35,069 nt of DNA, taken from contig CADANF010000038.1 of assembly GCA_902789175.1 (NCBI GenBank), forward strand, positions 1 through 35,069, written 5' to 3'. The position numbers and the translations under genes were made by a program. Below, piece by piece: positions 12,771 through 29,957 of this stretch (the stretch's first letter is position 1; every line of letters starts with the position of its first letter). This DNA comes from an uncultured Lachnospiraceae bacterium. Lineage in GTDB: Bacteria; Bacillota; Clostridia; Lachnospirales; Lachnospiraceae. Under the pieces are notes generated by a model, which made no database searches, was not told where the DNA came from, and was given only the letters and a program-made list of their open reading frames with translations.

Positions 12771-12825
12771 GTTGACATAAAAATGGACCATAGTCCCGGG
12801 GGCAGTGGTCCATTTTTATGTCAAC
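12771..12825 (+). repeat. 55-bp REP-like palindrome, copy 1
   Basis: Outer arms are GTTGAC and GTCAAC instead of GTTAAC, a paired change that keeps the stem. The centre reads TCCCGGGGG on the plus strand. It lies in the divergent gap before the symporter, far from any stop codon. Confidence 0.9.
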
Positions 12826-12987
12826 CCATAGATAACCCTCTTCATTATTCACTCTCATGAAATATTGTTCATTTTTGACTAAAAATGCATTTTTTTTGGC
12901 TGATTATGGAAAACTGATTTTCTGCAATATAGTATCATTAGATTGTGCATATTAAACAATTTTATAAAGTAATCAACATTTTCATTG

Positions 12988-12993
12988 TATAAT
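12988..12993 (+). promoter_or_regulatory. candidate -10 box of the symporter gene
   Basis: A consensus TATAAT lies 131 bp before the symporter start. No good -35 hexamer is visible 16-18 bp upstream, so this is only a candidate. It implies a leader of about 120 nt. Confidence 0.3.
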
Positions 12994-13124
12994 ATGTCAA
13001 GAGGATTATTATGCAGTGGCTTGTGATTTAAAGTATGATACACAAATTGAAAAACACATGTATCTAAATCAAAGTACACAAAACGAGTCATTTGCCCGTT
13101 AGTGTTTTGACAGGAGGGAAACGT

Positions 13125-14519
13125 ATGAAGGATGGTATGAAAAATGGTACAGAAAACGAAGTAAAGCTTTCTTCAAAGTTATGGTTATCCGCGGCAGATA
13201 GCATGTGCGGCGTGTTGTGCGGCATTGTTACCGGCGGTGGGATGACATATTTTTACACCAAATGGATGGGGCTAAACACTGAATATGCATCAGTTGTCTG
13301 GCTGCTCTTTGCCATTTGGAACGCCGTAAATGATCCGTTGTTCGGTTTCATTTCCGATCATACAAAATCAAAAATCGGCCGAAGAATACCGTATATAAGA
13401 TACGGAGCTCCATTTTACGGCCTGATCTTTATTCTAATGTGGGTACCTTATCTGTTCGGAAGAAGCCAGATGGCAGTGTCGATACAGATGCTCTCAATGC
13501 TCTTCTTATTCGATACCCTATATACCGCAATCGCAACGGCGCTTTATGTTATGCCGTATGAAATGACTGTAGATAATAAGACCCGCGCCTCAATATTTAT
13601 CTTTAAGATAATATTCGGTGTCATTTCCCTGGGGGGACCTATGGTTCTTCTACCACTTATTGAGCCGGACCCACATGACGATCCAACTTTCTTTAGGCTT
13701 GTGTTACTTGGAATTGGCGTTGTCGCTGCAGTGATCATCTTAATTTCAACATATTTTTATAAAGAACTTGATTATGTAAAAGACGAGGAACAACCTGGAT
13801 TTTTTAAAGCCCTTGCAGAATGCTTTAAGAACAAGCCATTTCTTATCTTTGAAGTCCTGTCATTTACGACTCAGCTTATAAATACCGCTCTCATGCAGGG
13901 AGTTTTGTATTATTTTGCAGAAACCAGGATAAAAATGGAACTTTGCTATACCCCAATGGTTATCGGGGCTGTAGCAGGAATGTTTATTTTTAAGATCATG
14001 ACAAATAAGCTGGGAGTAAAAAAATCGCTGCTCTTCCTTTGCTTTGAATTTGGTCTGGCCTGCCTCATGATGGCATTTTTCGGAAATGTTACATTTGTTG
14101 CAGTCATTGGTTTCTTCTGCGCTGGTATCGGCTACACCGGATGTATGTTCAGCGTTCCTCTTATGAATGGCGACGTGATTGATTTTGATGAAACAAGGAC
14201 TGGCCTTAGAAGAGAAGGAATGTACGCCGGAATAAACAGCTTTATCACAAAGCCTGCTCTTAGTATAGCTCAGGCCCTTTTCCTTACTATATGGAAAGCC
14301 TACGGCTATGACCAAAGTCTTGGCGCCGGCCTCCAGTCTGATAGAGCAAAGAAAGGACTTCTCATCGCTTGGATGATAGTTCCTGCCATATCTCTTATCA
14401 TCAGTGGCATTTCAATTTTATTTTATCCTTTAGACGGAAAAGAATGGGATGATAAAAAGAAAGAAATAATAAGGAAACATAAAGAAAAAGAAGCTCAATA
14501 CGAAAACCAATCGAAATAA
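13125..14519 (+). CDS. GPH-family (MelB-like) sugar:cation symporter
   Basis: The 464-residue integral membrane protein has about 12 hydrophobic segments. Family marks include D-P-L-F-G-F-I-S-D-H-T-K-S-K-I-G-R-R (first cytoplasmic loop) and the P-Y-E-M-T stretch typical of glycoside-pentoside-hexuronide symporters (MFS_2). Such carriers import sugars or glycosides with Na+ or H+. The start is the ATG at 13125, seven bases after AGGAGGG; an upstream in-frame ATG at 13092 has no ribosome site. The C-terminal tail is lysine-rich and cytoplasmic. No sugar hydrolase lies beside it, so the substrate is not known. A REP-like palindrome begins 4 bp after the stop and probably terminates it. Confidence 0.87.
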   Translation: MKDGMKNGTENEVKLSSKLWLSAADSMCGVLCGIVTGGGMTYFYTKWMGLNTEYASVVWLLFAIWNAVNDPLFGFISDHTKSKIGRRIPYIRYGAPFYGLIFILMWVPYLFGRSQMAVSIQMLSMLFLFDTLYTAIATALYVMPYEMTVDNKTRASIFIFKIIFGVISLGGPMVLLPLIEPDPHDDPTFFRLVLLGIGVVAAVIILISTYFYKELDYVKDEEQPGFFKALAECFKNKPFLIFEVLSFTTQLINTALMQGVLYYFAETRIKMELCYTPMVIGAVAGMFIFKIMTNKLGVKKSLLFLCFEFGLACLMMAFFGNVTFVAVIGFFCAGIGYTGCMFSVPLMNGDVIDFDETRTGLRREGMYAGINSFITKPALSIAQALFLTIWKAYGYDQSLGAGLQSDRAKKGLLIAWMIVPAISLIISGISILFYPLDGKEWDDKKKEIIRKHKEKEAQYENQSK

Positions 14520-14523
14520 GTTG

Positions 14524-14578
14524 GTTAACATAAAAATGGACCACAGTCCCGGGGGCTGTGGTCCATTTTTATGTTAAC
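14524..14578 (+). repeat. 55-bp REP-like palindrome, copy 2 (best example)
   Basis: Perfect 23-bp arms, GTTAACATAAAAATGGACC plus ACAG and their complement, flank the 9-nt centre TCCCGGGGG. It begins 4 bp after the symporter stop. Read rightward, the G/C-rich upper stem is followed by ATTTTTATG, a terminator shape; the same holds leftward. Confidence 0.95.
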
Positions 14579-14669
14579 TTTTTTATTTCTTCATATTTAC
14601 GAGCACTCATATACTTTTATTGCCAGCACTCTGCCTTTTTTCATGGTTGCTCAGTCTATTTCATCACAA

Positions 14670-15569
14670 TCACTCTGCAACTGGCGGTGCCTTAACCGTA
14701 TCTTCAGAAATGAGGCAGCTATCCACCGGTTCCATAGTTTCAGGCAATAGTGAATAAATGATATCGTCTTCTCCTACTCCATAATTTAAAAAGTATTGCA
14801 TATATGACATGTTCTTTGCCGTATAAAGGATAAGATCCATATGCTTTTCCCTTAATTCATTTAGATCATCGGTGCTTTCTCCCGGAACAACAGGAGTAAC
14901 CAATTCCTGATCTGCAAACTTCTGCCTTACTTCAAGCGTGGACAAAGGAACATTTTCCTCACCGATCCAATAAATATCGTTAGTCGTGTCCAACATAATC
15001 CATTTCTTATAATTACTGTCCCAGATTTCATTTACAACATGGCATTCGCCATCATAAATTGAAAATGGATTTATCCAAAGTTTACGCGAATATATTCCCA
15101 GCGCCAGATATTCTTCATTCATGATCTGAGCCTTGGCCCTGCAGTGAATACCATGCTTTGTTTCACCCAGCGCAAAATCAAGGAGATACAGCGCATTCAT
15201 ATCCTTCGTATATCCAGAAAAATTTCCATCATGTTCCATTTTATTTGAAAAATAATCCATAAGATTAACTGCTTTGTCGAACTCAGAACCATTTCCAGCA
15301 AGATCTATCAGATTGTATTTTTTTCTCAACTCCTGATACACTGGGTTATCCATATCATATTTGATAGTATTTTTTTCAGCACTTCTGAATGTCTTGGAAT
15401 TATAAATGATACCGCACTCCATGTTGTAGACTTCTTCTTTGGTTTGAACATAAGAAACCATCAGTTTATTAGGTGTAAGCTTGATATAAATTATATATCC
15501 CACAGCTACCGCTAAAAGAATCGTCAAACAGATTATAATGATATATTTAATCTTGATTTTCCCCTTCAT
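14670..15569 (-). CDS. membrane-anchored transglutaminase-like protein
   Basis: The 299-residue protein has a short basic N-terminus, one hydrophobic anchor (about 8-28), and an extracellular domain with the transglutaminase-like triad: C143 in GIHCRAKAQ, H177 in ECHVVNEIW, and D194 in WIMLDTTND. In Firmicutes such domains are mostly cysteine peptidases or cell-surface factors, not true protein cross-linkers. The start is the ATG at 15569, six bases after AAGGCGGGG; the upstream ATG overlaps that site. The C-terminus (Pro/Val-rich) is short. It stands alone; the gap to bioB is divergent and contains a palindrome. Confidence 0.8.
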   Translation of the reverse strand: MKGKIKIKYIIIICLTILLAVAVGYIIYIKLTPNKLMVSYVQTKEEVYNMECGIIYNSKTFRSAEKNTIKYDMDNPVYQELRKKYNLIDLAGNGSEFDKAVNLMDYFSNKMEHDGNFSGYTKDMNALYLLDFALGETKHGIHCRAKAQIMNEEYLALGIYSRKLWINPFSIYDGECHVVNEIWDSNYKKWIMLDTTNDIYWIGEENVPLSTLEVRQKFADQELVTPVVPGESTDDLNELREKHMDLILYTAKNMSYMQYFLNYGVGEDDIIYSLLPETMEPVDSCLISEDTVKAPPVAE

Positions 15570-15648
15570 AAAAACCCCGCCTTTCATTAATTCATTAGAA
15601 TTATAACATATTTTCTATCTCTTTTTACAACAGAAATAATCTGCCATA

Positions 15649-15703
15649 GTTAACATAAAAGTGGGCCAAGGTCCCGGGGGCAGTGGTCCACTTTTATGTT
15701 AAC
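15649..15703 (+). repeat. 55-bp REP-like palindrome, copy 3
   Basis: Outer arms are intact (GTTAAC...GTTAAC). The A-to-G change in the left arm (AAAAGTGG) is matched by T-to-C in the right (CCACTTTT), another compensating pair. One or two mismatches lie near the centre TCCCGGGGG. It lies between divergent genes, 21 bp before the BirA box of bioB. Confidence 0.9.
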
Positions 15704-15724
15704 CAGGGCAGCGGCCCCGCTTTT

Positions 15725-15756
15725 TTGTCAACCGTTGCTTAATTTCCGGTTGACAA
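15725..15756. promoter_or_regulatory. BirA operator of bioB
   Basis: TTGTCAACC (15725-15733), 14 bases, then GGTTGACAA (15748-15756) match the known BirA box of Gram-positive bacteria and many others (TTGTAAACC-N14/15-GGTTTACAA). Its right half contains a TTGACA (15750-15755) that can serve as the -35 box of bioB, with -10-like A/T sequence at 15771-15781. Biotin-loaded BirA would block the promoter. Confidence 0.85.
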
Positions 15757-15811
15757 ATTGATTTTTTTATTAAAATAATATGTCGTAAGAAACGAAACGA
15801 GGATTAAAATT

Positions 15812-16774
15812 ATGAAGATAGATTTAAAAAAACTTAGCCAGGAAATTATAAACGGTAAGAAGATAGATAAAGAAACTGCTCTCCTTCTTCTCGACGCCGA
15901 TTTAGATACTCTTTGTCAGGAAGCGGACAATATCCGCGCCGCATTTATGGCAAATAAGGTAAACCTTTGCTCCATTATCAGTGGCATTGAGGGCCGCTGC
16001 AGTGAAGATTGTAAATTCTGCGCCCAGTCAGGCCATAACAAATGTAACTGTGACGTTCATTCTCTTCTTCCCGACGAGACTGTGATCGCCGCTGCCAAAG
16101 CGAACGCTAACGCCGGTGTTAAGCGCTTTGCCATGGTAAATTCTGGCCGCTGCCCGTCAGCTGCTGACTTTGAAAGGATCATTTCTATCTATGAGAAAAT
16201 GAGTCGCGAAGTTGACATAAATCTTTGCTGTTCTCTTGGTTTCTTAACCAATGAGCAATTTATCCGCCTTAAAAATGCAGGCGTTAAATACGTTCATTGC
16301 AACCTTGAATCATCAAGAAATTATTTTGAAAAGGTCTGCAGCACCCACAGCTACGATGAAAAAATTGAAAATATCAGGCGTGCAAAAGCCGCAGGACTGA
16401 ATGTCTGCTCCGGCGGTATCATTGGCATGGGGGAGAGCTGGATGGACCGAATTGACATGGCTTTTGAATTAAGAGCCCTGGATATCAAGTCAATTCCCGT
16501 TAATACCCTTGTTCCAATCCCTGGAACTCCATTTGAAAATATTAAGAGGATCAGTGAAAACGATATTCTTCGATGCATTGCGATTTACCGTTTCATTAAT
16601 CCTGATGCGGACATTCGTCTCGCAGGCGGAAGAATCCTTATGAAAGATAATGGAAAGAAGGCATTTTCATGTGGTGCCTCAGCTTCAATCACAGGCAATA
16701 TGCTCACCACATCCGGCGCCACAATTAAAGAAGACATGTCCATGCTTAAAGAACTCGGCCGCATCGTTAGTTAA
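15812..16774 (+). CDS. bioB: biotin synthase
   Basis: The 320-residue radical SAM enzyme inserts sulfur into dethiobiotin. The [4Fe-4S] motif C63-x3-C67-x2-C70 (CSEDCKFC) matches the family, and the [2Fe-2S] cysteines lie at C114, C139/C140 and C199. The family stretches FCAQSG, GGIIGMGE, LVPIPGTPFE and RLAGGR are present. Length is normal. GAGG lies shortly before the ATG. The gene stands alone, with no bioA, bioD or bioF in the window, but its BirA box puts it under biotin control. The stop codon TAA lies inside the first bases of a REP-like palindrome (16770-16824), so the repeat supplies the end of the gene. Confidence 0.95.
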   Translation: MKIDLKKLSQEIINGKKIDKETALLLLDADLDTLCQEADNIRAAFMANKVNLCSIISGIEGRCSEDCKFCAQSGHNKCNCDVHSLLPDETVIAAAKANANAGVKRFAMVNSGRCPSAADFERIISIYEKMSREVDINLCCSLGFLTNEQFIRLKNAGVKYVHCNLESSRNYFEKVCSTHSYDEKIENIRRAKAAGLNVCSGGIIGMGESWMDRIDMAFELRALDIKSIPVNTLVPIPGTPFENIKRISENDILRCIAIYRFINPDADIRLAGGRILMKDNGKKAFSCGASASITGNMLTTSGATIKEDMSMLKELGRIVS

Positions 16775-16824
16775 CATAAAAATGAGCCATAGTCCCGGGG
16801 GCTATGGCTCATTTTTATGTTAAC
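16770..16824 (+). repeat. 55-bp REP-like palindrome, copy 4
   Basis: Inner arms are GAGCCATAG and CTATGGCTC instead of GGACCA/TGGTCC, changed on both sides so pairing is kept. The centre is TCCCGGGGG. The bioB stop codon lies inside the left arm. The last base is shared with the following 134-bp element. Confidence 0.95.
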
Positions 16825-16957
16825 TAGTATAACGTCACTTAAATAACTGGACCGAATGCTTGCCTGCTTACATCGATAGCACGCCTCAAAAATCCTCAGC
16901 GTAGCCCGCTACGCCTACGAGCGCATTAGTCCAGTTATTTTGCGAACGTTATACTAG
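16824..16957 (-). repeat. 134-bp palindromic element, copy 2 (inverted)
   Basis: This is the reverse complement relative of 6495-6637: it starts CTAGTATAACGTCACTTAAA and ends CGAACGTTATACTAG, with the same GTAGCGGGCTACG-type centre. A stretch of about 25 bp next to the centre differs from copy 1. The stop codon of the small membrane protein on the minus strand lies in its right end. It directly follows a 55-bp palindrome and precedes the RAYT gene by 0.6 kb. Confidence 0.75.
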
Positions 16958-17394
16958 TATTTGGCATTTTGCCAGGTTACATATATATGTCCTGTGAAAA
17001 ATAACACCGCAAACACCACTAGCAGCCAGTGTCTTAGTAAAACACCACTAATTATAAAAATGAAACTTGGAATTATAGCCAGTGCCATTGCAAGCCCCGC
17101 GCGCTTCTTTCTCATATAAATCGCAAATACAATATAATATGCAAAAAGAAGAATCAAATTTCCTATCACGTAAAGAACCATTTCAAATACGCTTTTAAAT
17201 CCAAACTTCCAGATAAGAAGCGGCATCCACATCAGCACTATACAGCCATATCTTCCAATCTGCTCTATTATATTCATAAAATGATTAATGCAGTGATTCT
17301 TCTCATCTTTATTTTTTTTTGCGTAAATAATATTCGGCACCATCATCAGAAGCACGATTGCCGCCCCAACAAAATTTATCCATCCAAATTTCAT
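16954..17394 (-). CDS. small membrane protein of unknown function
   Basis: The 146-residue protein is very hydrophobic, with four or five likely membrane helices (about 4-22, 42-62, 67-95, 100-118, 120-138) and lysine-rich loops, including K-K-N-K-D-E-K-N near 27. I do not recognise a family. Its TAG stop lies in the end of the palindromic element copy 2, so the element now forms its 3' end. It diverges from the RAYT gene across a 154-bp gap. Confidence 0.7.
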   Translation of the reverse strand: MKFGWINFVGAAIVLLMMVPNIIYAKKNKDEKNHCINHFMNIIEQIGRYGCIVLMWMPLLIWKFGFKSVFEMVLYVIGNLILLFAYYIVFAIYMRKKRAGLAMALAIIPSFIFIISGVLLRHWLLVVFAVLFFTGHIYVTWQNAKY

Positions 17395-17548
17395 TTAACT
17401 CATCCTTTTCCCTAATATGTATCCGTGAGAGACATTTACCCATTTATTATATCCAAGGAACTCATTTCCTCTATTGTAAGTTTCCAAAATTGATAATATA
17501 ATCAACTTACTATTAACAATTCTATAAAATTCTTTTAAAGGAGTACTT

Positions 17549-18334
17549 ATGCCAAGAAAACATAGACGTACTAGTTCTACTGGCATATATCATATCATAC
17601 TTCGTTCTATTAATCATCGTATTATCTTTGAAGAGAACTCCGACTATCTTAAATTTCTTTCAACCTTATCAATTAGTAAGGAAAAATATGGTATTGATAT
17701 ATTAGCCTATTGTGTAATGGATACTCACGTCCATTTTATGCTGCGTTCCGATTTGAACAACATATCTTTATTCTTTCAAAGTGTTGGCTCGAAGTTTGTC
17801 CTATGGTACAACAAAAAATATGAACGAACCGGTTCACTCTTTCAGGAAAGATACAGCAGTTTTGTTGTGGAAACTGAGCGCTATTTTCTATATACACTGG
17901 TCTATATTCATAACAATCCGGTCAAAGCCGGTGTCTGCCTTGCGCCTTCTGAGTACCGCTGGAGCAGTTTCAATGCTTATTATGGTGCCCATAATCCCCT
18001 TGTAAATGTTACTTATGCCATCAACTTATTTGGCAGCAAAGAAGCTCTGCACCGTTTCTTCGCTCATAATTTTAATCTTATTGATGAAAAATCATTTTCT
18101 TTTATTGAGAAAAAAAGTAATTATATGACTGATGAAGATGCTCTTAGAATTTATAAAGAGGTAACCGGACTTCCATCCGTTTCTGCCACCGCTGCTCTGC
18201 CGCGAGTTACGCGAAATAACTATATTCGCATATTAAAGAAAAAGGGCCTGACTATAAAACAAATTTCTCGAGTTATGGCAGTTTCAACAACAACCGTAAA
18301 ACGAATCTGCCCTTCCGCGGCAACTGAAACATAA
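17549..18334 (+). CDS. REP-associated tyrosine transposase (RAYT, Y1/HUH family)
   Basis: The 261-residue protein has an N-terminal Y1_Tnp (IS200-like) domain: start PRKHRRTSSTGIYHIILRS, the HUH motif M-D-T-H60-V-H62 followed by F-M-L, and the segment R-Y-F-L-Y-T-L-V-Y-I-H-N-N-P-V-K-A-G with the catalytic tyrosine (Y115 or a neighbour). These are hallmarks of RAYT/TnpA-REP proteins rather than of IS200 itself. The C-terminal ~90 residues end in a helix-turn-helix (about 220-255). AAAGGAG lies six bases before the ATG. RAYTs nick and move short palindromic repeats. Here the gene lies between palindromes at 16770 and 18384, and 13 copies of that repeat are in the window. Function on these repeats is inferred. 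Confidence 0.88.
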   Translation: MPRKHRRTSSTGIYHIILRSINHRIIFEENSDYLKFLSTLSISKEKYGIDILAYCVMDTHVHFMLRSDLNNISLFFQSVGSKFVLWYNKKYERTGSLFQERYSSFVVETERYFLYTLVYIHNNPVKAGVCLAPSEYRWSSFNAYYGAHNPLVNVTYAINLFGSKEALHRFFAHNFNLIDEKSFSFIEKKSNYMTDEDALRIYKEVTGLPSVSATAALPRVTRNNYIRILKKKGLTIKQISRVMAVSTTTVKRICPSAATET

Positions 18335-18383
18335 TATAAAAGCAAACCACAGTAAAAAAATCCTATAAAATTACTTTTTTTCA

Positions 18384-18438
18384 GTTAACATAAAAATGGA
18401 CCACTGCCCCCGGGACTATGGTCCATTTTTATGTTAAC
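18384..18438 (-). repeat. 55-bp REP-like palindrome, copy 5
   Basis: Intact arms GTTAACATAAAAATGGACC and complement, with centre CCCCCGGGA on the plus strand (TCCCGGGGG on the minus). It lies 49 bp after the RAYT stop and touches the stop codon of the convergent methyltransferase gene. Confidence 0.95.
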
Positions 18439-19148
18439 TAATTCTTTTTTTTCATTATGAAGATTCTTCTCTTTTCTTCTGCTTCACCTGGCCAAGCAAA
18501 ATATTCTATCTTCTCAATATCAAAATATTTGCTGAATATCTCGGTCCACTCTTCGTCTGTCCTTGTAACCATACGAAGAACGCCCCCCATATAGAGCTCA
18601 TTTTCATTTCTAAACTCAATTTTTTTCTCTGGATTATTTACCGGTGCCACGTAATAATTCATTGCAATAACAATCTTTGCACCGCCAGCAGCTATCCTTG
18701 CAAAATTTTTAAGGATACCCTCTGCAACATTTTCCGGAAGGACGTCGATCACATTGCTGCAAAAAATCCCATCATAAAGATCATCCTGCACATCCTTTAG
18801 CCAATCCACGTAAATGCATTTTGTCTCCATGCCCTTCTCGATCTTAAAGACATTTTTCATCAGATCTGCAAGTAAAATGGCATTTTCCACCACATCCACC
18901 GAGGTAACATTTTCACATCCTGATTTATTTAAAATAATACCTGCCCAGCCTTCTCCACAGCCATAATCTAAAACATTTTTCTGTGAAGCCAGCTGATTTA
19001 CCAGCACATTCTTAAGTTTTTCACATGAAGCAAGATTTTTCCAATCATTGTCGGGGTCGATTCCATTTATAAATTTTACTTTCTCTTCATCAGACATTTC
19101 AAAGGCCTGATTCCAGAAATTTAATGATTCCTTATAATTTTTATCCAT
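18438..19148 (-). CDS. class I SAM-dependent methyltransferase
   Basis: The 236-residue protein has a clear methyltransferase motif I, VLDYGCGEGWAG (59-70), followed by SVDVVENAI (acidic residue of strand 2) and a DGIFCSNVIDVLPE motif IV region. The last strands (AKIVIAMNYYV; RIFIMKKKN) are those of a small-molecule methyltransferase. The substrate is unknown. Its stop codon begins at the last base of a REP-like palindrome, which would terminate it. The gene diverges in no obvious operon; the broken small membrane-protein gene lies upstream on the same strand. Confidence 0.82.
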   Translation of the reverse strand: MDKNYKESLNFWNQAFEMSDEEKVKFINGIDPDNDWKNLASCEKLKNVLVNQLASQKNVLDYGCGEGWAGIILNKSGCENVTSVDVVENAILLADLMKNVFKIEKGMETKCIYVDWLKDVQDDLYDGIFCSNVIDVLPENVAEGILKNFARIAAGGAKIVIAMNYYVAPVNNPEKKIEFRNENELYMGGVLRMVTRTDEEWTEIFSKYFDIEKIEYFAWPGEAEEKRRIFIMKKKN

Positions 19149-19259
19149 AATTATTCCTTTCTATTAATTTATTAAACAAGTGACAATACTATTTCATTTC
19201 CTCTTTTTCCTAAAAAAATGGAACTAATACTCTATTACTATATTGCCCAAGCAACAATA

Positions 19260-19670
19260 TCACTTTATAAAACAAGCAACAATATTAGTTAATATCATTA
19301 AATGTAAAACAATATGGTATAAATCCGGGATCAATCTTGTTTCACTTACAGGAAAAACCTTAACTGTCCCTTCAAAGCAGCTATTATATCCCTTTAACTT
19401 TCTTTCACTTGCTCCGAAAATTGTAAAATACCAATGGCAAAAAAACTGAACGACAAACCAAAATAATAAAACTCCAAAAAGAATCCATTTACCAACAGCA
19501 GGAAAACAATAAAAACTTATAACCCCCGCACTATACAGGCAAAGCATAAAAAACTCAGCGCTCTTTATTCCCACCCCATCAACTAATTTGATTTTTCCAA
19601 ATTTCCAGCTTATTACACACCCTAAAAAACAGATTCATAATAAAAATTGAATAACACCTTTAATAAACAT
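19260..19670 (-). pseudogene. small membrane-protein gene with in-frame TGA at codon 12
   Basis: From ATG 19670, seven bases after GGAGG, the frame reads M-F-I-K-G-V-I-Q-F-L-L, then TGA (19635-19637), then continues unbroken for 124 more codons to the stop at 19260. The continued part has four hydrophobic segments and many aromatics, and reads as one protein (ICFLGCVISWKFGK... to ...IVACFIK). A downstream GTG (19574) could restart translation but has no good ribosome site. This is a recent nonsense mutation or a sequencing error. The family is unknown. Confidence 0.65.
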
Positions 19671-19783
19671 TTTTTCCTCCATTTCTGAGCTGTTGAAACA
19701 CCTGCCTGAATGCTCCAAGCCCTTTATTCATACCTTTTCAGCCTTAAATTAATACATTTCTTTCCAAAATCCCCGCCCATCTA

Positions 19784-19828
19784 GTTAACATAAAAATGGA
19801 CCACTGCCCCCGGGACCATGGTCCACTT
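19784..19828 (-). repeat. REP-like palindrome, copy 6, truncated
   Basis: The left arm and the centre CCCCCGGGA are intact, but the right arm stops after GGTCCACTT; the final TTATGTTAAC is lost. It lies 10 bp from the aldo/keto reductase stop codon. Confidence 0.85.
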
Positions 19829-19838
19829 CAACAAAATA

Positions 19839-20815: not shown

Positions 20816-20870
20816 GTTAACATAAAAATGGACCACTGCCTCCGGGACCATGGTCCACTTTTATGTTAAC
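20816..20870 (-). repeat. 55-bp REP-like palindrome, copy 7
   Basis: Both outer arms GTTAAC are intact and the centre is CCTCCGGGA (TCCCGGAGG on the minus strand). One arm has AAAAATGG and the other CCACTTTT, a G-T wobble. It ends 3 bp before the stop of the Maf-kinase gene. Confidence 0.95.
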
Positions 20871-22127: not shown

Positions 22128-22182
22128 GTTAACATAAAAATGGACCACTGCCCCCGGGACCTAGGTCCATTTTTATGTAAAC
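22128..22182 (-). repeat. 55-bp REP-like palindrome, copy 8
   Basis: The left arm is intact; the right arm reads ATGTAAAC, one mismatch from the consensus ATGTTAAC. The centre is CCCCCGGGA. It ends directly before the stop codon of the rhodanese/PP-loop gene. Confidence 0.95.
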
Positions 22183-22183: not shown

Positions 22184-23341
22184 TTAGTATTCATCCAGGA
22201 AATTATGGCGAACTCCGCCCTTTTTATATTCTATCACCGTATCAAGATTAACATTTTCCACACTTCTAAAAATGTTAGACTCCACAAACGGATTGGTTTT
22301 CTTAAGTTCAGCTATCAGCTTCTTAGTATCCAGCCTCTTCGACGAAGTAGTTCCGTCCTCATGACATGTAGAACAAGTCTCCGTAAAATGACACGCGCAC
22401 TGTAAAAATCTAAGTTCGTTATAATCTCTCCAAGCGCAAATGTCACTTTCCCTTACAAGATAAAGAGGTCTTATAAGCTGCATCCCCTCAAAATTTGTGC
22501 TATGAAGCTTCGGCATCATAGTCTGGATCTGAGCACCATGCAGCATGCCCATAAGGATCGTCTCGATCACATCATCGTAGTGATGCCCCAGAGCAATCTT
22601 ATTGCAGCCCAGTTCCTTAGCCTTACTGTAAAGATAGCCCCTCCTCATCCTCGCGCAAAGATAACAAGGACTCTTCACCACCGTGTCCACCGTATCAAAA
22701 ATGCTACTTTCAAATATTGTTATCGGAATCCCGAGAGCCTTGGCATTGCTTTCGATAAGCGCCCTGTTTTCCTTATTATATCCAGGATCCATAACAAGAA
22801 ATGTCAGCTCAAATGACATCTGTCTATGCCGCTTTATTTCCTGAAAAAGCTTTGCCATAAGCATCGAATCTTTTCCACCGGAGATACATACCGCAATATG
22901 ATCCCCTTCCTCGATAAGCTTGTAAGTCTTGCACGCCTTCGCAAATGGAGAAAAAAGCTGTTTGTGGAATTTCTTCTGTATGCTCTTTTCTGCCTTATTT
23001 TTCCTTTCCTCTAAATTCGCTTCATTGCTCATCTCAGCACGCACATAACCGATGTATCCCTCAGCCAGGCTGTAGCAGTCCCAGCCACTTAAACATTCCA
23101 TGGTATCATCAAGCTCAAGCGAACTTCTGCCTATCTCGCAATAAAATATGAGCTTCTTATCCTTAGGAATTCCCACCAGCTTTTTGCGAACTTCATCACT
23201 GTTTTCTTCTAATTCCTCTTTAGTAAAATTCAAGGCTCCAGGGATCATGCCGTAAGCCACCGTCCCCTCATCCCTTATATCTATCAATTGAAATGAATCT
23301 TCCCTCAAAGCTTTCATTTCCTCATATGTTATCTCTTTCAT
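22184..23341 (-). CDS. rhodanese domain fused to TtcA-like PP-loop ATPase
   Basis: The 385-residue protein begins with a rhodanese domain (about 1-100; active-site loop F-Y-C68-E-I-G-R-S) and continues with an adenine nucleotide alpha-hydrolase domain (PP-loop SGGKDS at 154-159). C226-x2-C229 (C-Y-L-C-A-R-M-R-R-G) and ALGHHYDD follow; a further Cys-rich stretch near 315-326 (C-A-C-H-F-T-E-T-C-S-T-C) replaces the usual C terminus. This fits tRNA 2-thiocytidine (TtcA-type) enzymes, which bind an iron-sulfur cluster; the rhodanese part could supply sulfur. The start is ATG 23341, eight bases after GAGGAG. The upstream MLRRYL would read through the ribosome site. Confidence 0.82.
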   Translation of the reverse strand: MKEITYEEMKALREDSFQLIDIRDEGTVAYGMIPGALNFTKEELEENSDEVRKKLVGIPKDKKLIFYCEIGRSSLELDDTMECLSGWDCYSLAEGYIGYVRAEMSNEANLEERKNKAEKSIQKKFHKQLFSPFAKACKTYKLIEEGDHIAVCISGGKDSMLMAKLFQEIKRHRQMSFELTFLVMDPGYNKENRALIESNAKALGIPITIFESSIFDTVDTVVKSPCYLCARMRRGYLYSKAKELGCNKIALGHHYDDVIETILMGMLHGAQIQTMMPKLHSTNFEGMQLIRPLYLVRESDICAWRDYNELRFLQCACHFTETCSTCHEDGTTSSKRLDTKKLIAELKKTNPFVESNIFRSVENVNLDTVIEYKKGGVRHNFLDEY

Positions 23342-23444
23342 CAAATATCTCCTCAGCAAACTTACTGTATTCTTCTATATTTTTCGCCTGATTACATATA
23401 TTTTATGTCTCTTAATTTTCTTAATCTAATACAATTAAATGCTT

Positions 23445-24377
23445 TTATCTCCACATCCAACTAACCGTATTTTTCGTCTGCACCAGTCCCAGCCCCTTCT
23501 GCAACCTGATCGACGCCTTATTATCCGTTATAACATGACAATAAGGAATAAATCCTGTTTTCCTTATCTTTTTTATCATAACCTGTTCCAGCCTTGAACC
23601 ATAGCCTTTTTTCCTATATTCCGGGAAAATGTATAAAAGCCCCATACTGCCTTCATGATGCTGCCCGATAAATCCCACGAGCCTGTCCTCGTCATAACCC
23701 AGTAAAATGTTACCTTGCATCACCAGATCTTTTAATTCTTCTTTACTTATAAGATCATAGTTTGCAGAAAGCATGGAAAAATCATTTTCATCTGCAACCC
23801 TGACACTCAGCAAATCTCTTGTTTCTTCTGTCATCTCATTTGCTTCATCTTCCGCCATCTCACTGAGCAATTTTCCTGCTTCACCATCTTTCATCTCAGC
23901 ATGCAAGCCTCTTGCTTCATGTTCTATCATTTTCCTGCTCAATCCATCAACTCGCTTGGAATCAAGGTCATTAACTTCTTCTTCAAAACATACCTCTTCC
24001 CCGTCAGCATTTAAAAACGCAAACTGGTAGCACTCCATCGGCCCGTTAAAATCATATTTTCTAGCAGCTTTCTTTCCAAGAGATGCTCCCGCTGCATTCA
24101 TAGCCTCATTCACTAGAGTCTCTTTCGCTTCATACACTCTAAATTTTTCAGCAGGCATCTTCCTCTCTGGTTCAGTTACCATCAACAATTTCCAATCTTT
24201 AGTTATATATTTTTCAAGGATTTTCATTCCAGACTCATAATCAGCACATGCAAGATAGTAGCCTTCGCTTACTGAGTCAAATATTAAAAGATAATTATCA
24301 TTTTCTTCAATAATTTTACCTGTGCCTCGTTTCATTATATGTTGAAAAACAACATATTCAATTGAGCTAATATCCAT
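23445..24377 (-). CDS. GNAT-family N-acetyltransferase with N-terminal extension
   Basis: The 310-residue protein has a GNAT fold in its last ~120 residues: VADENDFSMLS, LVGFIGQHHEGSMGLLYIFPEYRKKGYGSRLEQVM (the acetyl-CoA loop R-K-K-G-Y-G-S-R), and a VITDNKASIRLQKGLGL C-terminal signature. The first ~135 residues (YVVFQHIMKRGTGKIIEENDNYLLIFD...) are a separate domain of about the length of a GNAT N-lobe. Between them lies a highly charged, Glu/Lys/Ala-rich helical stretch (about 136-192) that looks like an expansion. The substrate is unknown. It is upstream of the rhodanese/PP-loop gene on the same strand. Confidence 0.8.
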   Translation of the reverse strand: MDISSIEYVVFQHIMKRGTGKIIEENDNYLLIFDSVSEGYYLACADYESGMKILEKYITKDWKLLMVTEPERKMPAEKFRVYEAKETLVNEAMNAAGASLGKKAARKYDFNGPMECYQFAFLNADGEEVCFEEEVNDLDSKRVDGLSRKMIEHEARGLHAEMKDGEAGKLLSEMAEDEANEMTEETRDLLSVRVADENDFSMLSANYDLISKEELKDLVMQGNILLGYDEDRLVGFIGQHHEGSMGLLYIFPEYRKKGYGSRLEQVMIKKIRKTGFIPYCHVITDNKASIRLQKGLGLVQTKNTVSWMWR

Positions 24378-24477
24378 TTATCTTCCTCTAGTCACTCTAA
24401 CTTAAGTATTATTACGCTTCATTTTAACATTTTAACCTAACAACTGTGAAGCATAAAAAATGAGTCCCAACTTTCAA

Positions 24478-24532
24478 GTTAACATAAAAATGAGCCATAG
24501 CCCCCGGGACTATGGCTCATAATTATGTAAAC
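24478..24532 (-). repeat. 55-bp REP-like palindrome, copy 9
   Basis: This has the GAGCCATAG/CTATGGCTC inner stem (paired variant). The centre is CCCCCGGGA. The right outer arm is damaged (CATAATTATGTAAAC). It ends 3 bp before the flotillin stop codon. Confidence 0.93.
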
Positions 24533-24535
24533 AAA

Positions 24536-26068
24536 TTATTCCACTGTTTCCTCAATCTTATTTATATCTGTTGCTACATCTTCTGTAACAACGCTGTCTA
24601 CATTGCCGTCAACAGTGATATCTTTCTTAACAACTGCATCGTAGGTCTTAGCTTTTACAATTTCACCCATATCTACGCCTGTGATATCTGATGTGATATC
24701 AAATACCTGCTTCATAACTGATGGAACCATTCCAGTAACTTTCATTGTTCCATTTTCGCCTGACTTGTCGCTTGAAGCATCGTAAATATTGAGGTTTTTG
24801 ATATTTGCCATTGGCTCTGCAATTGCTTTAGCCATCTCAGGAAGCTTTTCAATGATCATCTGTACCATAGCAGCCTGACCATACTGCTTCATAGCTTCAG
24901 CCTTTTTCTTTGTTGCCTCAGCTTCAGCAACGCCCTTTGCTTCAATTGCAGCAGCTTCAGCTTCACCTTTTGCTCTGATAGCAGCAGCTGTCTGTTCTGC
25001 TACATAACGAGCTGCATCAGCCACAGCCTTTTCAGCTTCTGCCTGTTTCTCCTGCTCGTACTTCTTAGCATCTGCTTCATTTTGGCGTCTGATCTTGTCA
25101 GCTTCAGCTTTCTGCTGTGCTGCGTACTTTTCAGCTTCAGCCTGTTTCTTAATAGAAGCTGCAAGTTCCTGTTCCTTTACAGCAACCTGCTTATTACGAA
25201 GTTCTGTCTCACGCTCTGCCTTTGCAATCTCTGCGTTTACCTCTTCTGCATTGATTGACTTTCTCTGCTTCTGAGCCTCAATGTTACCGGCTGCTTCAGC
25301 CTTTGCCATTTCAATATCAGCCTGAGCCTTAAGTTCTGCTCTCTTTAAAGCAAGTGCTGTTTCGCGCTCTGCAATAGATGTCTTAGATTTTACTTCAGCT
25401 TCATTTGCAGCCTGATTTGCATCAGCCTGTGCAACCTTGATTTCCTTCTCAGCATTGGCCTTTGAAATCTCAGCTGATTTTCTGATTGCTACTGTGTTAG
25501 CAATACCAAGGTTTTCAATAACACCAAGTGCACCGTCGTCGATGTTCTGAATGTTAAATGTTACAATCTCAAGACCCATATTTCTCATATCTGCATCAGC
25601 ATTTTCCTGAACCTTAAGAGCAAATGTCTTTCTGTCATTCATGATCTCCTGAAGTTTCATAGATCCGATGATCTCACGAAGATTACCTTCAAGAACCGAA
25701 CCAACCATCGTATTAATGTAAGCTGTGTCCTTATTAAGGAAGTTTTCAGCTGCCTTTGAAAGATGCGCTGGATCATTTCCTATCTTTATCACTGCAACTG
25801 AATCAACATTGATATTGATGTAGTCCAGTGTTGGGATTGTCTGTGTTGTCTTAACATCAACTGAAAGCATCTGTAATGAAAGTACGTCTTTTCTCTGGAT
25901 AAATGGTACTTTAAATCCAGCCTGTCCGTTAAGATACTTCGGTTTCTTTCCTCCACCTGTTATAATAAATACCTTATCTGATGGTGCCTTTACATAAGAT
26001 GTAAAGAAAAGAAAGATAAGGAAAACTACAACAGCTCCAATAATTGCATACATTGTGTTATCGGTCAT
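24536..26068 (-). CDS. floT: flotillin-like SPFH membrane scaffold protein
   Basis: The 510-residue protein has one N-terminal membrane segment (about 7-25), a PHB/SPFH domain (about 28-200), and a long Ala/Glu/Lys/Gln-rich coiled coil (about 200-400) with repeated A-x-A-E/K units. It is the arrangement of B. subtilis FloT/YuaG. Flotillins form ring-like membrane scaffolds for signalling and transport. The C-terminal ~90 residues (KVTGMVPSVMKQVFDITSDITGVDMGEIVKAK...) are conserved in many clostridial flotillins. No NfeD-type partner gene lies beside it. A REP-like palindrome ends the gene. A plain run of GGGG precedes the ATG. Confidence 0.9.
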   Translation of the reverse strand: MTDNTMYAIIGAVVVFLIFLFFTSYVKAPSDKVFIITGGGKKPKYLNGQAGFKVPFIQRKDVLSLQMLSVDVKTTQTIPTLDYININVDSVAVIKIGNDPAHLSKAAENFLNKDTAYINTMVGSVLEGNLREIIGSMKLQEIMNDRKTFALKVQENADADMRNMGLEIVTFNIQNIDDGALGVIENLGIANTVAIRKSAEISKANAEKEIKVAQADANQAANEAEVKSKTSIAERETALALKRAELKAQADIEMAKAEAAGNIEAQKQRKSINAEEVNAEIAKAERETELRNKQVAVKEQELAASIKKQAEAEKYAAQQKAEADKIRRQNEADAKKYEQEKQAEAEKAVADAARYVAEQTAAAIRAKGEAEAAAIEAKGVAEAEATKKKAEAMKQYGQAAMVQMIIEKLPEMAKAIAEPMANIKNLNIYDASSDKSGENGTMKVTGMVPSVMKQVFDITSDITGVDMGEIVKAKTYDAVVKKDITVDGNVDSVVTEDVATDINKIEETVE

Positions 26069-26295
26069 ATTACCATACCCCTTTCATTTAATTAATAGTT
26101 GCAGGGGTGCTCTTCTGTCACCCGCTGATTCATAATTATATATTTTTCCCACATAAAAACAATCAATATTTGTGCACTATAACATCTTTTTCGTGCATTT
26201 TATAATTTTTGCGATATTGCACCGTCCAAACCCAGAAATGCATTGCTATTGGACTCACTGCCCAAACCTAAAGACGAGATGACACTGCCATCTCG

Positions 26296-26350
26296 GTTAA
26301 CATAAAAATGGACCATAGCCTCCGGGACTATGGTCCATTTTTATGTTAAC
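26296..26350 (-). repeat. 55-bp REP-like palindrome, copy 10
   Basis: Perfect outer arms and ATAAAAATGGACCATAG stem, with centre CCTCCGGGA. It ends 4 bp before the stop of the MATE gene. Confidence 0.95.
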
Positions 26351-26354
26351 TATT

Positions 26355-27737
26355 TTATACCATCTGCACTAACCAAATGTTGCTCTTTACCATGAAGTAG
26401 CCAACAATGCTCTTGATCAGTTCTGTTCCGTTTACAAAGAAATATACTAAAATGATTGAAAGCCCGGTATAATGAGCAAGCACAAATGCTAATGGTGCCA
26501 TTACAAAGCAGGTAAATACTGAGTCAAATAAAAATGTCACCAGAGTCTTTCCGCCGGATCTAAGTGTAAAATATGCCGCATGACTGAAAGCACATACCGG
26601 CATCCAAAAAGCATTAACAGCTATCATTTTCGCCGCAATATCCTTTATCTGCTGATCTACATTATAAATCTCAGGGAAGAGATGTCCGCAGGCAAACATT
26701 ATGGTCGCCATTATGGTACAGCAAAAAAATGAAAATACTATCATTTTATTGTCTGAGTCCTTGGCAAGCTCCATTTCCCCGGCACCAAGGTATTGTCCCA
26801 CAATGATACTGATACAGGCCCCCAGCTGGATGAATACTATATTAAACAGGTTCGCCACTGTATTTGTCATACTCATTGCCGTAAGCACATTCATGCCGCG
26901 AACCGAATAACTCTGGGTAACGGCACTCATACCGATTGCCCAAAGGATCTCATTTAACATAAGTGGAGCGCCCTTTAGAACGATCTTTTTAAATATATCT
27001 AGCGGAAGGCCAAAACCCTTATATGCCTCCTTAAGATATCTGTTTTTTTCTTTGTTTGAGTGCGCCCAGATGAGAACTATCGCCGCCTCTATGTATCGTG
27101 CAATGACCGTGGCAATAGCTGCTCCTGCAACCTTAAGTTCCGGAAATGGTCCAATTCCGAAAATGAGACAATAGTCCAGTACTGCATTTGTCACAACCGC
27201 AACCATTCCCGCAAGCATTGGAACTAAGGTCTGTCCCGTTTCTTTAATATTTGTCACATACGCCTGATTTATCGCAAATGGAATGAGTCCGATTATCATG
27301 ATCCCCAAGTACGAAAGTCCATATTCCAGGGCAAGGTCCACAGACGCACCTTCACTCTCCGTTAAAAATAAAGAGATCAGGTCTCTGCCAAAAAACTTAA
27401 ATAAAATGATTCCAAGTCCTGTCACGATCAAAGCCATATAAAGCTTAAATCTGAAAGTAAACATATGGCCTTTGTAATCACCTTTTCCATAATACTGGGC
27501 ACCATAGATACTTCCCGCTGAAACCGCACCAAATATAGCAAGGGAAAGAACAAAATTCAGCTGGTTTACTGTAGCTACAGCAGAAATGGCTTCCTGCCCC
27601 AGCTTACCAACCATGATATTATCCAGAAAACTAACGAAATTAGTTATGGCATTCTGGATTATCATAGGAGTGGCTATTAAGATATATCTTTTATAAAAAG
27701 CTTTATCGCCTATATATTTTTTTCTTAATCTTTCCAT
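26355..27737 (-). CDS. MATE-family multidrug/solute efflux protein
   Basis: The 460-residue integral membrane protein has about 12 hydrophobic helices and MATE signatures: an N-terminal M-I-I-Q-N-A-I-T-N-F-V-S-F-L-D-N-I-M-V-G-K-L segment with its repeat-like partner in the second half (AGEMELAKDSDNKM, VFSFFCCTIMATIMF). Such proteins export cations, drugs or metabolites using Na+ or H+. The start is ATG 27737, seven bases after AAGAGG. The longer reading frame from 27788 has no good site. It is read divergently from the spermidine-synthase-like gene across two degenerate palindromes. The transported compound cannot be deduced. Confidence 0.88.
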   Translation of the reverse strand: MERLRKKYIGDKAFYKRYILIATPMIIQNAITNFVSFLDNIMVGKLGQEAISAVATVNQLNFVLSLAIFGAVSAGSIYGAQYYGKGDYKGHMFTFRFKLYMALIVTGLGIILFKFFGRDLISLFLTESEGASVDLALEYGLSYLGIMIIGLIPFAINQAYVTNIKETGQTLVPMLAGMVAVVTNAVLDYCLIFGIGPFPELKVAGAAIATVIARYIEAAIVLIWAHSNKEKNRYLKEAYKGFGLPLDIFKKIVLKGAPLMLNEILWAIGMSAVTQSYSVRGMNVLTAMSMTNTVANLFNIVFIQLGACISIIVGQYLGAGEMELAKDSDNKMIVFSFFCCTIMATIMFACGHLFPEIYNVDQQIKDIAAKMIAVNAFWMPVCAFSHAAYFTLRSGGKTLVTFLFDSVFTCFVMAPLAFVLAHYTGLSIILVYFFVNGTELIKSIVGYFMVKSNIWLVQMV

Positions 27738-27940
27738 AATTTTCCTCTTTTCTATCCCGAACCATAAACTGAATCTAATATTTTTCATTTTCTCTTATTA
27801 CTTTTATACAGTATAATAATCGAATTTAATTAATGCAATCTTCCTAAAACACATCAGAAAAATCCCATTATTTTAACAGCTATATCAGATTTCTTCGGCA
27901 ATATTTTTGATTGAATCCTTAATCCGTCTCAAAATTTTAG

Positions 27941-27987
27941 GTCGACATAAAAATGGACCACAGCCTCCGGGACTATGGTCCACTTTC
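27941..27987 (-). repeat. REP-like palindrome, copy 11, degenerate
   Basis: The left arm starts GTCGAC; the centre is CCTCCGGGA; the right arm stops after GGTCCACTTTC and runs directly into the next copy. Confidence 0.85.
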
Positions 27988-27988
27988 G

Positions 27989-28036
27989 GTTAACATAAAA
28001 TGAGCCACTGCCTCCGGGACTATGGTCCACTTTTGT
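27989..28036 (-). repeat. REP-like palindrome, copy 12, degenerate, tandem
   Basis: The left arm has one A fewer in the A run (CATAAAATGAGCC), a GAGCC left stem against GGTCC on the right (one side changed, so a mismatch), and centre CCTCCGGGA. The right end decays into the promoter of the next gene. Confidence 0.85.
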
Positions 28037-28044
28037 GGTATAAT
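28036..28044 (+). promoter_or_regulatory. extended -10 promoter of the spermidine-synthase-like gene
   Basis: TGGTATAAT fits an extended -10 box. It starts at the decayed edge of copy 12, 45 bp before the ATG at 28090. No -35 is needed for such promoters and none is clear. Confidence 0.5.
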
Positions 28045-28089
28045 CATAAAACAGGTATGTATTTATATATTTTAAGAGGAGTTATATTT

Positions 28090-29877
28090 ATGAAAGAAAA
28101 AAAGGAAGGTATCACTGCGGCGGATCGCCCGATCTTAAAAAACAAGTCTTATCTTTATCTCACGGAATTTTTTTCCGGCATGTCTGTTATGGCAGTCGAA
28201 CTTGGAGCCAGCAGGCTTCTTGCCCCATATTTCAGTTCGTCCCAGATTGTCTGGACCATAATAATTGGAACCATAATGATTGCTATGGCTCTTGGAAACA
28301 TTTACGGTGGCCGAAAAGTGGATAAAGATCCGAATCCTGACAAACTTTATGGAAGGATTCTTCTTGCTGCCATTTGGATCGCGCTTATCCCTGCATTAGG
28401 CCGCTACATAATCATTGGCATTTCCGCTCTGCTGGTATTTACCATCAGCACCAACTTCCTTGTGATTGCTGCATTTGCTGCGTGCATGATAATCTTTGTA
28501 TTTCCACTTTTTTTACTGGGAACCGTAACCCCTTCCCTTGTAAAATATACTGTTGACAGCCTTGACGACAACGGAAAGATTGTTGGAAATCTCAATGCTT
28601 TCAACACTGTAGGAAGCATCATAGGAACATTTGTGCCTACATTTATAAGCATTCCCACAGTTGGAACTTCCATTACTTTCCTGATTTTTGCCGGAATCCT
28701 GATTATACTTGCAGCTATTTACTTCATTTCCAGCCACATTTTTCCAAAGAAACTTCCAATTGCTTTAATAATATTCATACTTTGCTGCATTTTCGGGCAT
28801 GGGAACAGTTTTGCTTTCTGGCAAAAACACCTTACTGCAGAGGATGAATCCATTTACAACTATCTTCAGGTTTCTGAAAATGATAAGCAGGTAATTCTTT
28901 CAACCAATGTGCTTTTCGGCGTCCAGTCCGTTTATCTTAAGGACCGGGAACTCACAGGCATGTATTACGACTATGCCATGGCGGCACCATACATGGCAGG
29001 GATTTATGAAAATAATCGTCCGCTGGATGTGCTGATCCTTGGCATGGGCACGGGAACTTACGCCACCCAGTGCCGCAGATATTTCGGGAAAATGAATATC
29101 GAAGGTGTTGAGATTGATCAAAAAATAACTGATCTAAGTCACCAGTATTTTCAACTGCCCCAGGATATAAATGTCGCAGCTTACGATGGCCGCGCGTATC
29201 TTAATGCCTTATCTTCCGATCACTGGAAAAATGATTCTCCATACGGAACTTCTGATAAAAAATATGACATCATCATGGTGGACGCATATCAGGATATAAC
29301 AATTCCATTTCAAATGTCTACGGTTGAATTTTTCACCCTTGTTAAGGCTCACCTTCGTGAAAATGGTATCATGGTGGTCAATATGAATATGCGCGGGATT
29401 TCAACTGAGGACGAGTTGAACGGGGCTTCAAATACGATTGGACCAAATGGGACTTCAAATACTGCTAAGTTAAATGGGACTTCAACTCAAGGTGGACCGG
29501 ATAGTGCTTTAAAAAAAGATGCTAATATCACCGACTATCTGGCAGATACCATTTCCTATGTATTTCCTGAGGTTGCAATCGTTGATGTAGACTATTCAAC
29601 AAACCGCGAATTATTTGCCGCCTGCTCCCCGGGGCTTTGGGAACATTTTAGGCAGAACATAGCTTTAGAAAATGATCCAGAATTACTTCAAATGATGAAT
29701 AGCGTAGAATCAGAACTAAAATCTTATTCTCCGGGCAACCACATAATGACCGATGATAAGGCCCCTGTGGAACTACTGGGAATGCAGGTAATCGATGAGA
29801 TCATCCGGGATGAAGTAAGTTATTATAAAAAAATCTATGATGAAAAGGGGTGGGATGGTCTCATGGAAATTCTATAA
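28090..29877 (+). CDS. membrane protein fused to a spermidine-synthase-like domain
   Basis: The 595-residue protein has about eight hydrophobic helices in residues 20-240 (MFS-like fused spermidine synthase family). A soluble Rossmann domain follows: nucleotide/SAM motif DVLILGMGTGTYATQC (313-328), acidic IEGVEID, and DIIMVDAYQD (393-402). The MVDAYQD motif is the aminopropyltransferase-type acidic pair. Residues 438-475 are a low-complexity Asn/Gly/Ser/Thr insertion with N-G-A-S-N-T, N-G-T-S-N-T and N-G-T-S-T repeats. Enzymatic polyamine synthesis is not shown for this membrane group. The start is ATG 28090, with AAGAGGAG eight bases upstream; the reading frame continues through a palindrome further upstream and is not coding there. 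Confidence 0.85.
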   Translation: MKEKKEGITAADRPILKNKSYLYLTEFFSGMSVMAVELGASRLLAPYFSSSQIVWTIIIGTIMIAMALGNIYGGRKVDKDPNPDKLYGRILLAAIWIALIPALGRYIIIGISALLVFTISTNFLVIAAFAACMIIFVFPLFLLGTVTPSLVKYTVDSLDDNGKIVGNLNAFNTVGSIIGTFVPTFISIPTVGTSITFLIFAGILIILAAIYFISSHIFPKKLPIALIIFILCCIFGHGNSFAFWQKHLTAEDESIYNYLQVSENDKQVILSTNVLFGVQSVYLKDRELTGMYYDYAMAAPYMAGIYENNRPLDVLILGMGTGTYATQCRRYFGKMNIEGVEIDQKITDLSHQYFQLPQDINVAAYDGRAYLNALSSDHWKNDSPYGTSDKKYDIIMVDAYQDITIPFQMSTVEFFTLVKAHLRENGIMVVNMNMRGISTEDELNGASNTIGPNGTSNTAKLNGTSTQGGPDSALKKDANITDYLADTISYVFPEVAIVDVDYSTNRELFAACSPGLWEHFRQNIALENDPELLQMMNSVESELKSYSPGNHIMTDDKAPVELLGMQVIDEIIRDEVSYYKKIYDEKGWDGLMEIL

Positions 29878-29902
29878 AAATCCATCTTATTCCCTGATCC
29901 AG

Positions 29903-29957
29903 GTAGACATAAAAATGAGCCATAGCCCCCGGGACTATGGCTCATTTTTATGTCTAC
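29903..29957 (-). repeat. 55-bp REP-like palindrome, copy 13
   Basis: The outer arms are GTAGAC and GTCTAC (paired change) and the inner stem is GAGCCATAG/CTATGGCTC (paired change). The centre is CCCCCGGGA. It lies between convergent genes, 25 bp after the spermidine-synthase-like stop and 27 bp from the permease stop, so it could end both. Confidence 0.95.

Follow-up and report, generated by a model that had tools for sequence, protein, structure and literature searches.

The window analysed here, i.e., the whole stretch of 35,069 nucleotides, is contig CADANF010000038.1 (C38) of an uncultured Lachnospiraceae bacterium of the gut (assembly GCA_902789175.1), one of the 78 contigs that make up its genome of 2,749,358 bases. 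It carries a family of short palindromes and, between two of them, a single gene for a REP-associated tyrosine transposase (RAYT; REP, repetitive extragenic palindromic sequence). The relationship between these palindromes and the RAYT is the subject of this study.

Palindromes and RAYT gene in the window

Thirteen palindromes were found at 12771–29957, as a previous sequence-only reading had reported, ten of them full length (55 nt) and three without most of one outer arm. If strand is taken as the orientation with loop GCCCCCGGGA, copies 1 to 4 lie on the minus strand and are all full length (12771–12825, 14524–14578, 15649–15703 and 16770–16824), the fourth providing the stop codon of the gene at 15812–16774. 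The other nine lie on the plus strand. Copy 5 (18384–18438, full length) begins 49 nt beyond the RAYT stop codon and is the inverted partner of copy 4 across that gene, and copy 6 (19784–19828) has no right foot, while its orthologous copy in the close relative G018 has no left foot instead. Further along are the full-length copies 7 (20816–20870), 8 (22128–22182), 9 (24478–24532; mismatches in the outer arm) and 10 (26296–26350), a doublet formed by copy 11 (27941–27986, without the right foot) and copy 12 (27989–28037, with a degenerate right foot), and the full-length copy 13 (29903–29957), which has the foot variant GTAGAC/GTCTAC.

The arm pattern, allowing up to three mismatches, had 19 matches in the window, whereas 100 shuffles gave 0.01 on average. 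The copies had been described as near-identical, which holds for their frame and not for every base, the stems being mainly GGACC/GGTCC or GAGCC/GGCTC. The feet are GTTAAC, GTTGAC or GTTTAC, with GTAGAC in only one of 83 full-length copies from two genomes, and the GGGAC of this family sits in the loop. Hairpin z-scores ranged from −8 to −11 (four folds of three full-length copies), and one single-foot copy scored −3.4. No part of the window matched Rfam at gathering scores.

The RAYT gene (17549–18334, plus strand, 261 aa) is intact and has the copies at 16770 and 18384 on either side, in agreement with the earlier description. Its product is a Y1/HUH endonuclease (Pfam Y1_Tnp, E 7e-11) with the HUH motif H60-V-H62, the single tyrosine Y119 of a Y---NP motif, N123-P124 and a C-terminal helix-turn-helix at about residues 221–255. 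Its best NCBIfam family is the REP-associated tyrosine transposase (63.6 bits, E 1.7e-17, under the curated cut-off of 80), and this model matched all 20 aligned sequences, which were chosen from the hits, at E ≤ 0.001; H60, H62, Y119, N123 and P124 were invariant in the same 20. Helix-turn-helix profiles matched residues 221–255 of the window protein weakly (best E 0.0016, below cut-offs), and HTH_7 was clearer in relatives (15 of the 20 at E ≤ 1, best 1.2e-7). An AlphaFold2 model built from three near-identical sequences had a mean predicted local distance difference test (pLDDT) score of 50, with only the C-terminal helices fair, and a sequence search of PDB gave no match to the RAYT at E ≤ 1. 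It was the only RAYT match in its own genome at E ≤ 0.001. The ratio of nonsynonymous to synonymous substitutions (dN/dS) was 0.13–0.19 across three close species, therefore the gene has been kept; on these sequence comparisons, the catalytic residues are under purifying selection.

The gene is flanked by inverted arms at 16767–16840 and 18368–18441 (copies 4 and 5), which are 82% complementary over 74 nt. Because of its C-terminal helix-turn-helix and inverted flanking repeats, the RAYT fits the TIRYT/subclass 2.1 type, as far as protein features and flanking repeats allow such a judgement. Terminal inverted repeats were reported for TIRYT or 'TIRtron' elements by Di Nocera et al. 2013 (PMC3733652), while TnpA_REP subclass 2.1, or RAYT group 1, is described in Quentin et al. 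2018 (PMC6006769) by Y---NP, HUH, a longer protein and a C-terminal helix-turn-helix.

Distribution of the palindrome and the RAYT

Counting the palindrome beyond the window, in its own genome and in relatives, returned dozens of copies and a pairing with the RAYT. Profile searches recovered 79 whole or partial copies from 16 contigs of the own genome, 93 from G018 and 83 from G433. The DNA searched amounted to 365 kb for the own genome, 304 kb for G018 and 330 kb for G433, all in stretches picked because they held pattern hits or copies, so that degenerate copies elsewhere that escape the pattern would be missed. Contigs of G433 and G018 link C37 to C38, C39 to C41 and C34 to C46 of the own genome.

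Within the genus the palindrome (up to three mismatches) was present in four of 61 genomes, and the same four hold a RAYT at least 87% identical to that of the window (Fisher 2e-6, uncorrected for kinship). The link would fail if the palindrome were equally abundant in relatives lacking this RAYT; it was found in none of the 57 such genomes of the genus, and the remaining RAYTs detected in the genus were at most 39% identical to that of the window. When 84,980 species were scanned for the exact pattern, with the own genome possibly left out, 64 stretches were returned, all from three genomes. The RAYTs of these genomes were 90% (UBA3772), 97% (RGIG507) and 87% (an uncultured Lachnospiraceae bin) identical to that of the window, and the third could be followed no further than residue 125, where its contig appears to end. 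The Band-7 protein is 97–99% identical among the four palindrome-bearing species and at most 71% elsewhere; by this measure the four look like close relatives.

Nor is the system peculiar to a single Firmicute: among the 392 genomes of the order, 61 contain a RAYT match at E ≤ 1e-30.

Palindromes beside related RAYTs

Flanks were compared with each other at ten RAYT loci, all outside the genus and encoding proteins of 50–58% identity; this comparison, like the hairpin survey described below, was made without a matched control on RAYT-free stretches. At nine of the ten, a repeat stood in inverted orientation on either side of the gene, in the form of imperfect palindromes centred on GGGAC, G363 being the single locus among the ten without a flanking repeat. 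Most of the nine have the stem end GG[TA]CCATTT or GGCTCATTT, like the palindrome of the window.

Pattern hits of this related family numbered 69 in G061, 70 in G098 and three in G358. Twenty further genomes had no hit, namely 12 from the genus of G061 and G098 that lack a RAYT (E ≤ 1e-30) and eight with a RAYT of 36–56% identity. More distant RAYTs have different palindromes beside them. In the genus of the window another palindrome (GGGACGGTTCTG...) occurs in three genomes whose RAYT is 36% identical, with 65, 47 and 11 copies, respectively. A survey of near-perfect hairpins in stretches of up to 20 kb around 34 RAYT loci found at least six copies of the locus's own hairpin at 13, one to five at 18, and no hairpin near the gene at three. 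This survey misses imperfect hairpins, since only two of the ten loci with RAYTs of 50–58% identity reached six copies, compared with nine of ten detected by flank comparison.

Across the order, a RAYT (E ≤ 1e-30) was present in 12 of 26 genomes with at least ten hits to a generic GGGAC[AG]G palindrome and in 49 of 366 others. The 26 rows were chosen by eye and a backwards-pattern control reached 15 hits in one genome, and the tie between generic palindromes and RAYTs across the order is suggestive only. The order-level relative G076 has 571 generic hits and no RAYT at E ≤ 1e-30, a repeat that is either orphan or differently mobilised.

These comparisons bear on whether the palindromes are instead miniature inverted-repeat transposable elements (MITEs) of another transposase, with ends like GTTAACATAAAAATGGACC serving as terminal inverted repeats and the RAYT present in the field by chance. 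Inverted ends, many copies, intergenic location and a purine as the base just outside the palindrome at 72 of 78 ends would all be compatible with such an origin. Many, although not all, DDE-type MITEs create a target duplication. Among 39 full-length copies duplications were not above chance (six of 2 nt compared with 5.8 expected, one of 4 nt compared with 0.2, and none of 5 nt or more), and related RAYTs are flanked by related palindromes while more distant RAYTs are flanked by others. We regard a MITE origin as improbable.

Clustering around the RAYT

Several families have their palindromes concentrated near the RAYT. In G002, a genome of one contig, 64 typed positions correspond to 40 sites, of which seven lie within 15 kb of the RAYT where 0.31 would be expected; no other place on a 5-kb grid has as many, and five sites remain when the two flanking ones are omitted (p 2e-5). 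Hits near the RAYT amounted to 12 of 69 in G061 (within 20 kb), 10 of 70 in G098 (20 kb) and 12 of 47 in G011 (34 kb), where 0.4–0.5 would be expected, these spans having been chosen after the positions were seen. The own genome has 13 palindromes in the window compared with 1.0 expected, in a window that was itself chosen for its repeats. The generic motif exceeded expectation at p < 0.01 in five of 14 RAYT stretches (G254, G301, G397, G417 and G048), with eight hits near the RAYT of G254 compared with 0.28 expected.

Regional clusters could also arise if the palindromes were bound by a protein that organises the chromosome or acts in replication, a role with which their concentration in few regions, their symmetry and the presence of sites common to several species would agree. 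However, the stem subtypes GGACC/GGTCC and GAGCC/GGCTC preserve pairing rather than one fixed sequence, and a general chromosome function is argued against because the palindrome was not found in 57 of 61 members of the genus. This explanation is very unlikely.

Placement relative to genes and sequence change

All copies in the window had been described as intergenic, and most are. The copy at 16770 extends over the final 5 nt of the radical-SAM/BATS gene that precedes it, whose TAA stop it provides, while the copy at 27989 overlaps the longest open reading frame (ORF) at 28000, whose real start is likely to be an ATG after AGGAG near 28090, downstream of the copy. From about 12.4 to 30 kb of the window, 12 of the 15 spacers between main ORFs hold a palindrome. 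With crude ORF calls, only seven of 79 copies lay more than half within an ORF of at least 80 codons, though the intergenic share of the searched DNA is 14%.

The copies favour positions directly behind genes. Between same-direction genes, 39 of 59 begin no more than 12 nt from the preceding stop codon, compared with 10.4 expected if they were spread evenly within their own spacers, and 22 of the 59 abut or overlap it. Divergent genes flank six of the 78 copies that could be placed (crude ORF calls). A rule tying palindrome orientation to gene direction was considered and dropped (38 opposite, 25 same). An orientation rule for whole fields was likewise dropped. In the window, copies 1 to 4 to the left of the RAYT all point in one direction and the nine to its right in the opposite one, with a similar arrangement around the RAYT of G002. 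At the 25 loci of the hairpin survey with copies on both sides, the nearest two were opposite at 14 and the same at 11, and G011 was mixed. Since orientations are mixed, the claim is restricted to the inverted pair that flanks the closest RAYTs.

Comparison of occupied with empty sites in close species, as the sequence-only reading had proposed, found nearly all resolvable own-genome sites filled. In four other comparisons, empty sites numbered five of 60, one of 47, three of 55 and three of 46 resolvable sites. In all these comparisons, including those of the own genome, empty sites are under-counted because the searched stretches were picked for holding copies. Empty sites were mostly messy, the one clean occupied/empty pair being C41:1196–1250 of G018 against C14 of G433, directly 3' of a stop codon. 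G440 has neither palindrome nor RAYT; its Band-7 (SPFH) gene is the sole part that aligns well with the window, so this genome gave no empty sites. The palindrome family seems old, with most of its dispersal apparently before the split of the sampled species.

Orthologous full-length palindromes differ at 2.8–3.6% of bases (one copy was paired twice) compared with 5–9% in their flanks. Stem changes between orthologous copies are mostly one-sided. Over 59 distinct copies from two genomes there were 33 paired-change cells, above all 500 shuffles (largest 25), a count inflated by kinship. In G018 one half of a hairpin has been duplicated internally.

Placement and slow divergence could also be expected if the palindromes were host bidirectional transcription terminators or 3'-end RNA hairpins under selection, with the RAYT either a bystander or the agent that spread them long ago. 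The layout of A-tract, G+C stem and T-tract, hairpins stable on both strands, the excess of copies just behind stop codons and the divergence below that of the flanks all fit such a role. However, ordinary terminators are not expected in just four of 61 genomes of a genus, with a common 55-nt sequence and densest at one gene; six of the placed copies lie between divergent genes; and a consensus terminator scan marked only two of the 13 copies (19 sites compared with 12.1, standard deviation 4.1, in shuffles). Although this is the most serious of the alternatives, we judge it to be somewhat improbable.

Other features of the window

A MITE-like element of about 135–145 bp, unrelated to the palindromes, occurs at 16824–16957 and 6495–6640 with the ends TAGTATAACG/CGTTATACTA, one copy adjoining palindrome copy 4. 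It looks recently active in the own lineage, because these ends number 29 in the 365 kb of the own genome, one in the 304 kb of G018 and none in the 330 kb of G433.

The A+T-rich stretch at 71–6432 (27–30% G+C) has genes for a KAP NTPase, an AAA helicase with DUF2726, NERD and AAA proteins (Pfam), which match the PADLOC models PDC-S49, MkoA/MkoC and IetA. It is possibly a defence island adjoining the palindrome field, and a RecQ-type helicase gene (6638–8935) lies beside it. The gene starts at 10176–10282 and 11355–11461 are 85% identical over 107 nt; the latter belongs to a GNAT acetyltransferase gene (11138–11461) and the former to a short ORF without a Pfam match.

Discussion

The palindromes are probably the cognate repeat family of the lone RAYT in their midst. 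The pairing is supported by co-occurrence, by related palindromes at nine of the ten closest other RAYTs and different ones at distant RAYTs, and by local clustering. It is the RAYT that would have moved or spread the palindromes, an action that the sequence-only reading had offered as an inference.

Several observations weigh against this interpretation. Little recent activity is evident, as 54 of the 79 own-genome sites could be resolved against G433, all 54 being filled and none empty, and 52 against G018, of which 50 were filled and two empty. Stem pairs with a double change (six) were not above shuffles (mean 5.3, largest 7). Because the four palindrome-bearing species are closely related, their co-occurrence may count as one event. 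Four genomes in which no RAYT matched at E ≤ 0.001 also have the GGGACGGTTCTG palindrome, in nine, four, three and two copies, and two of these genomes are 75–80% complete. G342, G076 and G188, which are among the genomes with most generic GGGAC palindromes, have no RAYT at E ≤ 1e-30. The generic motif showed no significant excess in nine of the 14 RAYT stretches (G311 twice, G320, G346, G386, G392, G039, and G149 twice), where it may not be the cognate palindrome, and of the other five only G254 and G397 stay at p < 0.01 when gene-adjacent copies are omitted. Finally, palindrome clusters without a RAYT exist (C4, C12 and C46 of the own genome and C9 of G098), therefore the RAYT is a hub and not the sole one.

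If the palindromes are the substrate of the RAYT, the following mechanism may be proposed. The palindrome would fold to a hairpin when single-stranded, at a replication fork or in a transcription bubble, and the HUH tyrosine Y119 would nick it at its foot. The excised piece would be joined into nearby single-stranded DNA, and it is because of this proposed local joining that copies would pile up around the RAYT gene. Selection would then leave mainly those copies in harmless spots directly behind stop codons, helped by the stop codon within GTTAAC, with a terminator role possibly added on top. More tentatively, and with rather less than even confidence, we suggest that RAYTs of the TIRYT branch seed palindromes mostly beside themselves, by a cis-acting or fork-local single-strand hop that would fill almost all spacers near the gene before rarer long jumps start new clusters. 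Each RAYT lineage of this branch in the Lachnospirales would then sit in a private field of its own making, whose density marks the position of the RAYT.

The palindromes resemble classical REPs in being intergenic, repeated and hairpin-forming, but their designation as REPs was not sustained in the classical sense as the hairpin has no 5' GT[AG]G foot. Classical gammaproteobacterial REP/RAYT systems, as described in Nunvar et al. 2010 (PMC2817692) and Corneloup et al. 2021 (PMC8266576), likewise have their own flanking intergenic palindromes in tens to hundreds. However, those REPs are 20–50 nt long with a GTAG/GTGG tetranucleotide at one end, while the palindrome of the window is 55 nt with the same foot at both ends, and the window enzyme carries a helix-turn-helix, unlike the classical RAYT. 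The 'double foot' REPs of subclass 2.4 (PMC6006769) have, as in the window, a foot and its reverse complement at opposite ends, but the window has a GTTAAC-like foot and an enzyme that fits a different subclass.

The closest likeness among these systems by enzyme and flanks is to TIRYT and subclass 2.1. In the available part of PMC3733652, TIRYT elements are, like the window, RAYT-like Y1 transposases with inverted flanking repeats, in moderately abundant families occurring as singles, dimers or groups, and one TIRYT of S. maltophilia has self-complementary repeats. Many TIRYT repeats have the motif GGGGWSAS, which is a majority consensus and not universal in the source papers. The family of the window lacks the full motif and has CCGGGAC only, while GGGGAC[AG]G-like or GGGAC[AG]G-like motifs are common beside the RAYTs of relatives. 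The same part of PMC3733652 mentions neither a RAYT-centred field nor a stop-codon preference, both of which are seen here, and the words Firmicutes and Clostrid- are absent from that text. The window RAYT shares Y---NP, HUH, a long protein and a C-terminal helix-turn-helix with subclass 2.1; however, PMC6006769 reported no REP-like sequences beside subclass 2.1 genes, whereas the window gene is flanked by hairpins repeated across its genome. In the same source, 25.4% of the surveyed bacterial species had a class 2 (RAYT-type) gene. Among the papers listed by searches of open-licence PMC text, none dealt with families of REPs or TIRs next to RAYTs in Firmicutes, Lachnospiraceae included.

The helix-turn-helix branch of RAYTs, earlier reported without REPs, here has repeat families, and thus offers a new place to study how repeats are seeded in chromosomes. 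Since related palindromes accompany related RAYTs, are dense near the gene and land after stop codons, their dispersal becomes testable, and the many RAYT–palindrome pairs within one order are natural material for mapping recognition by covariation.

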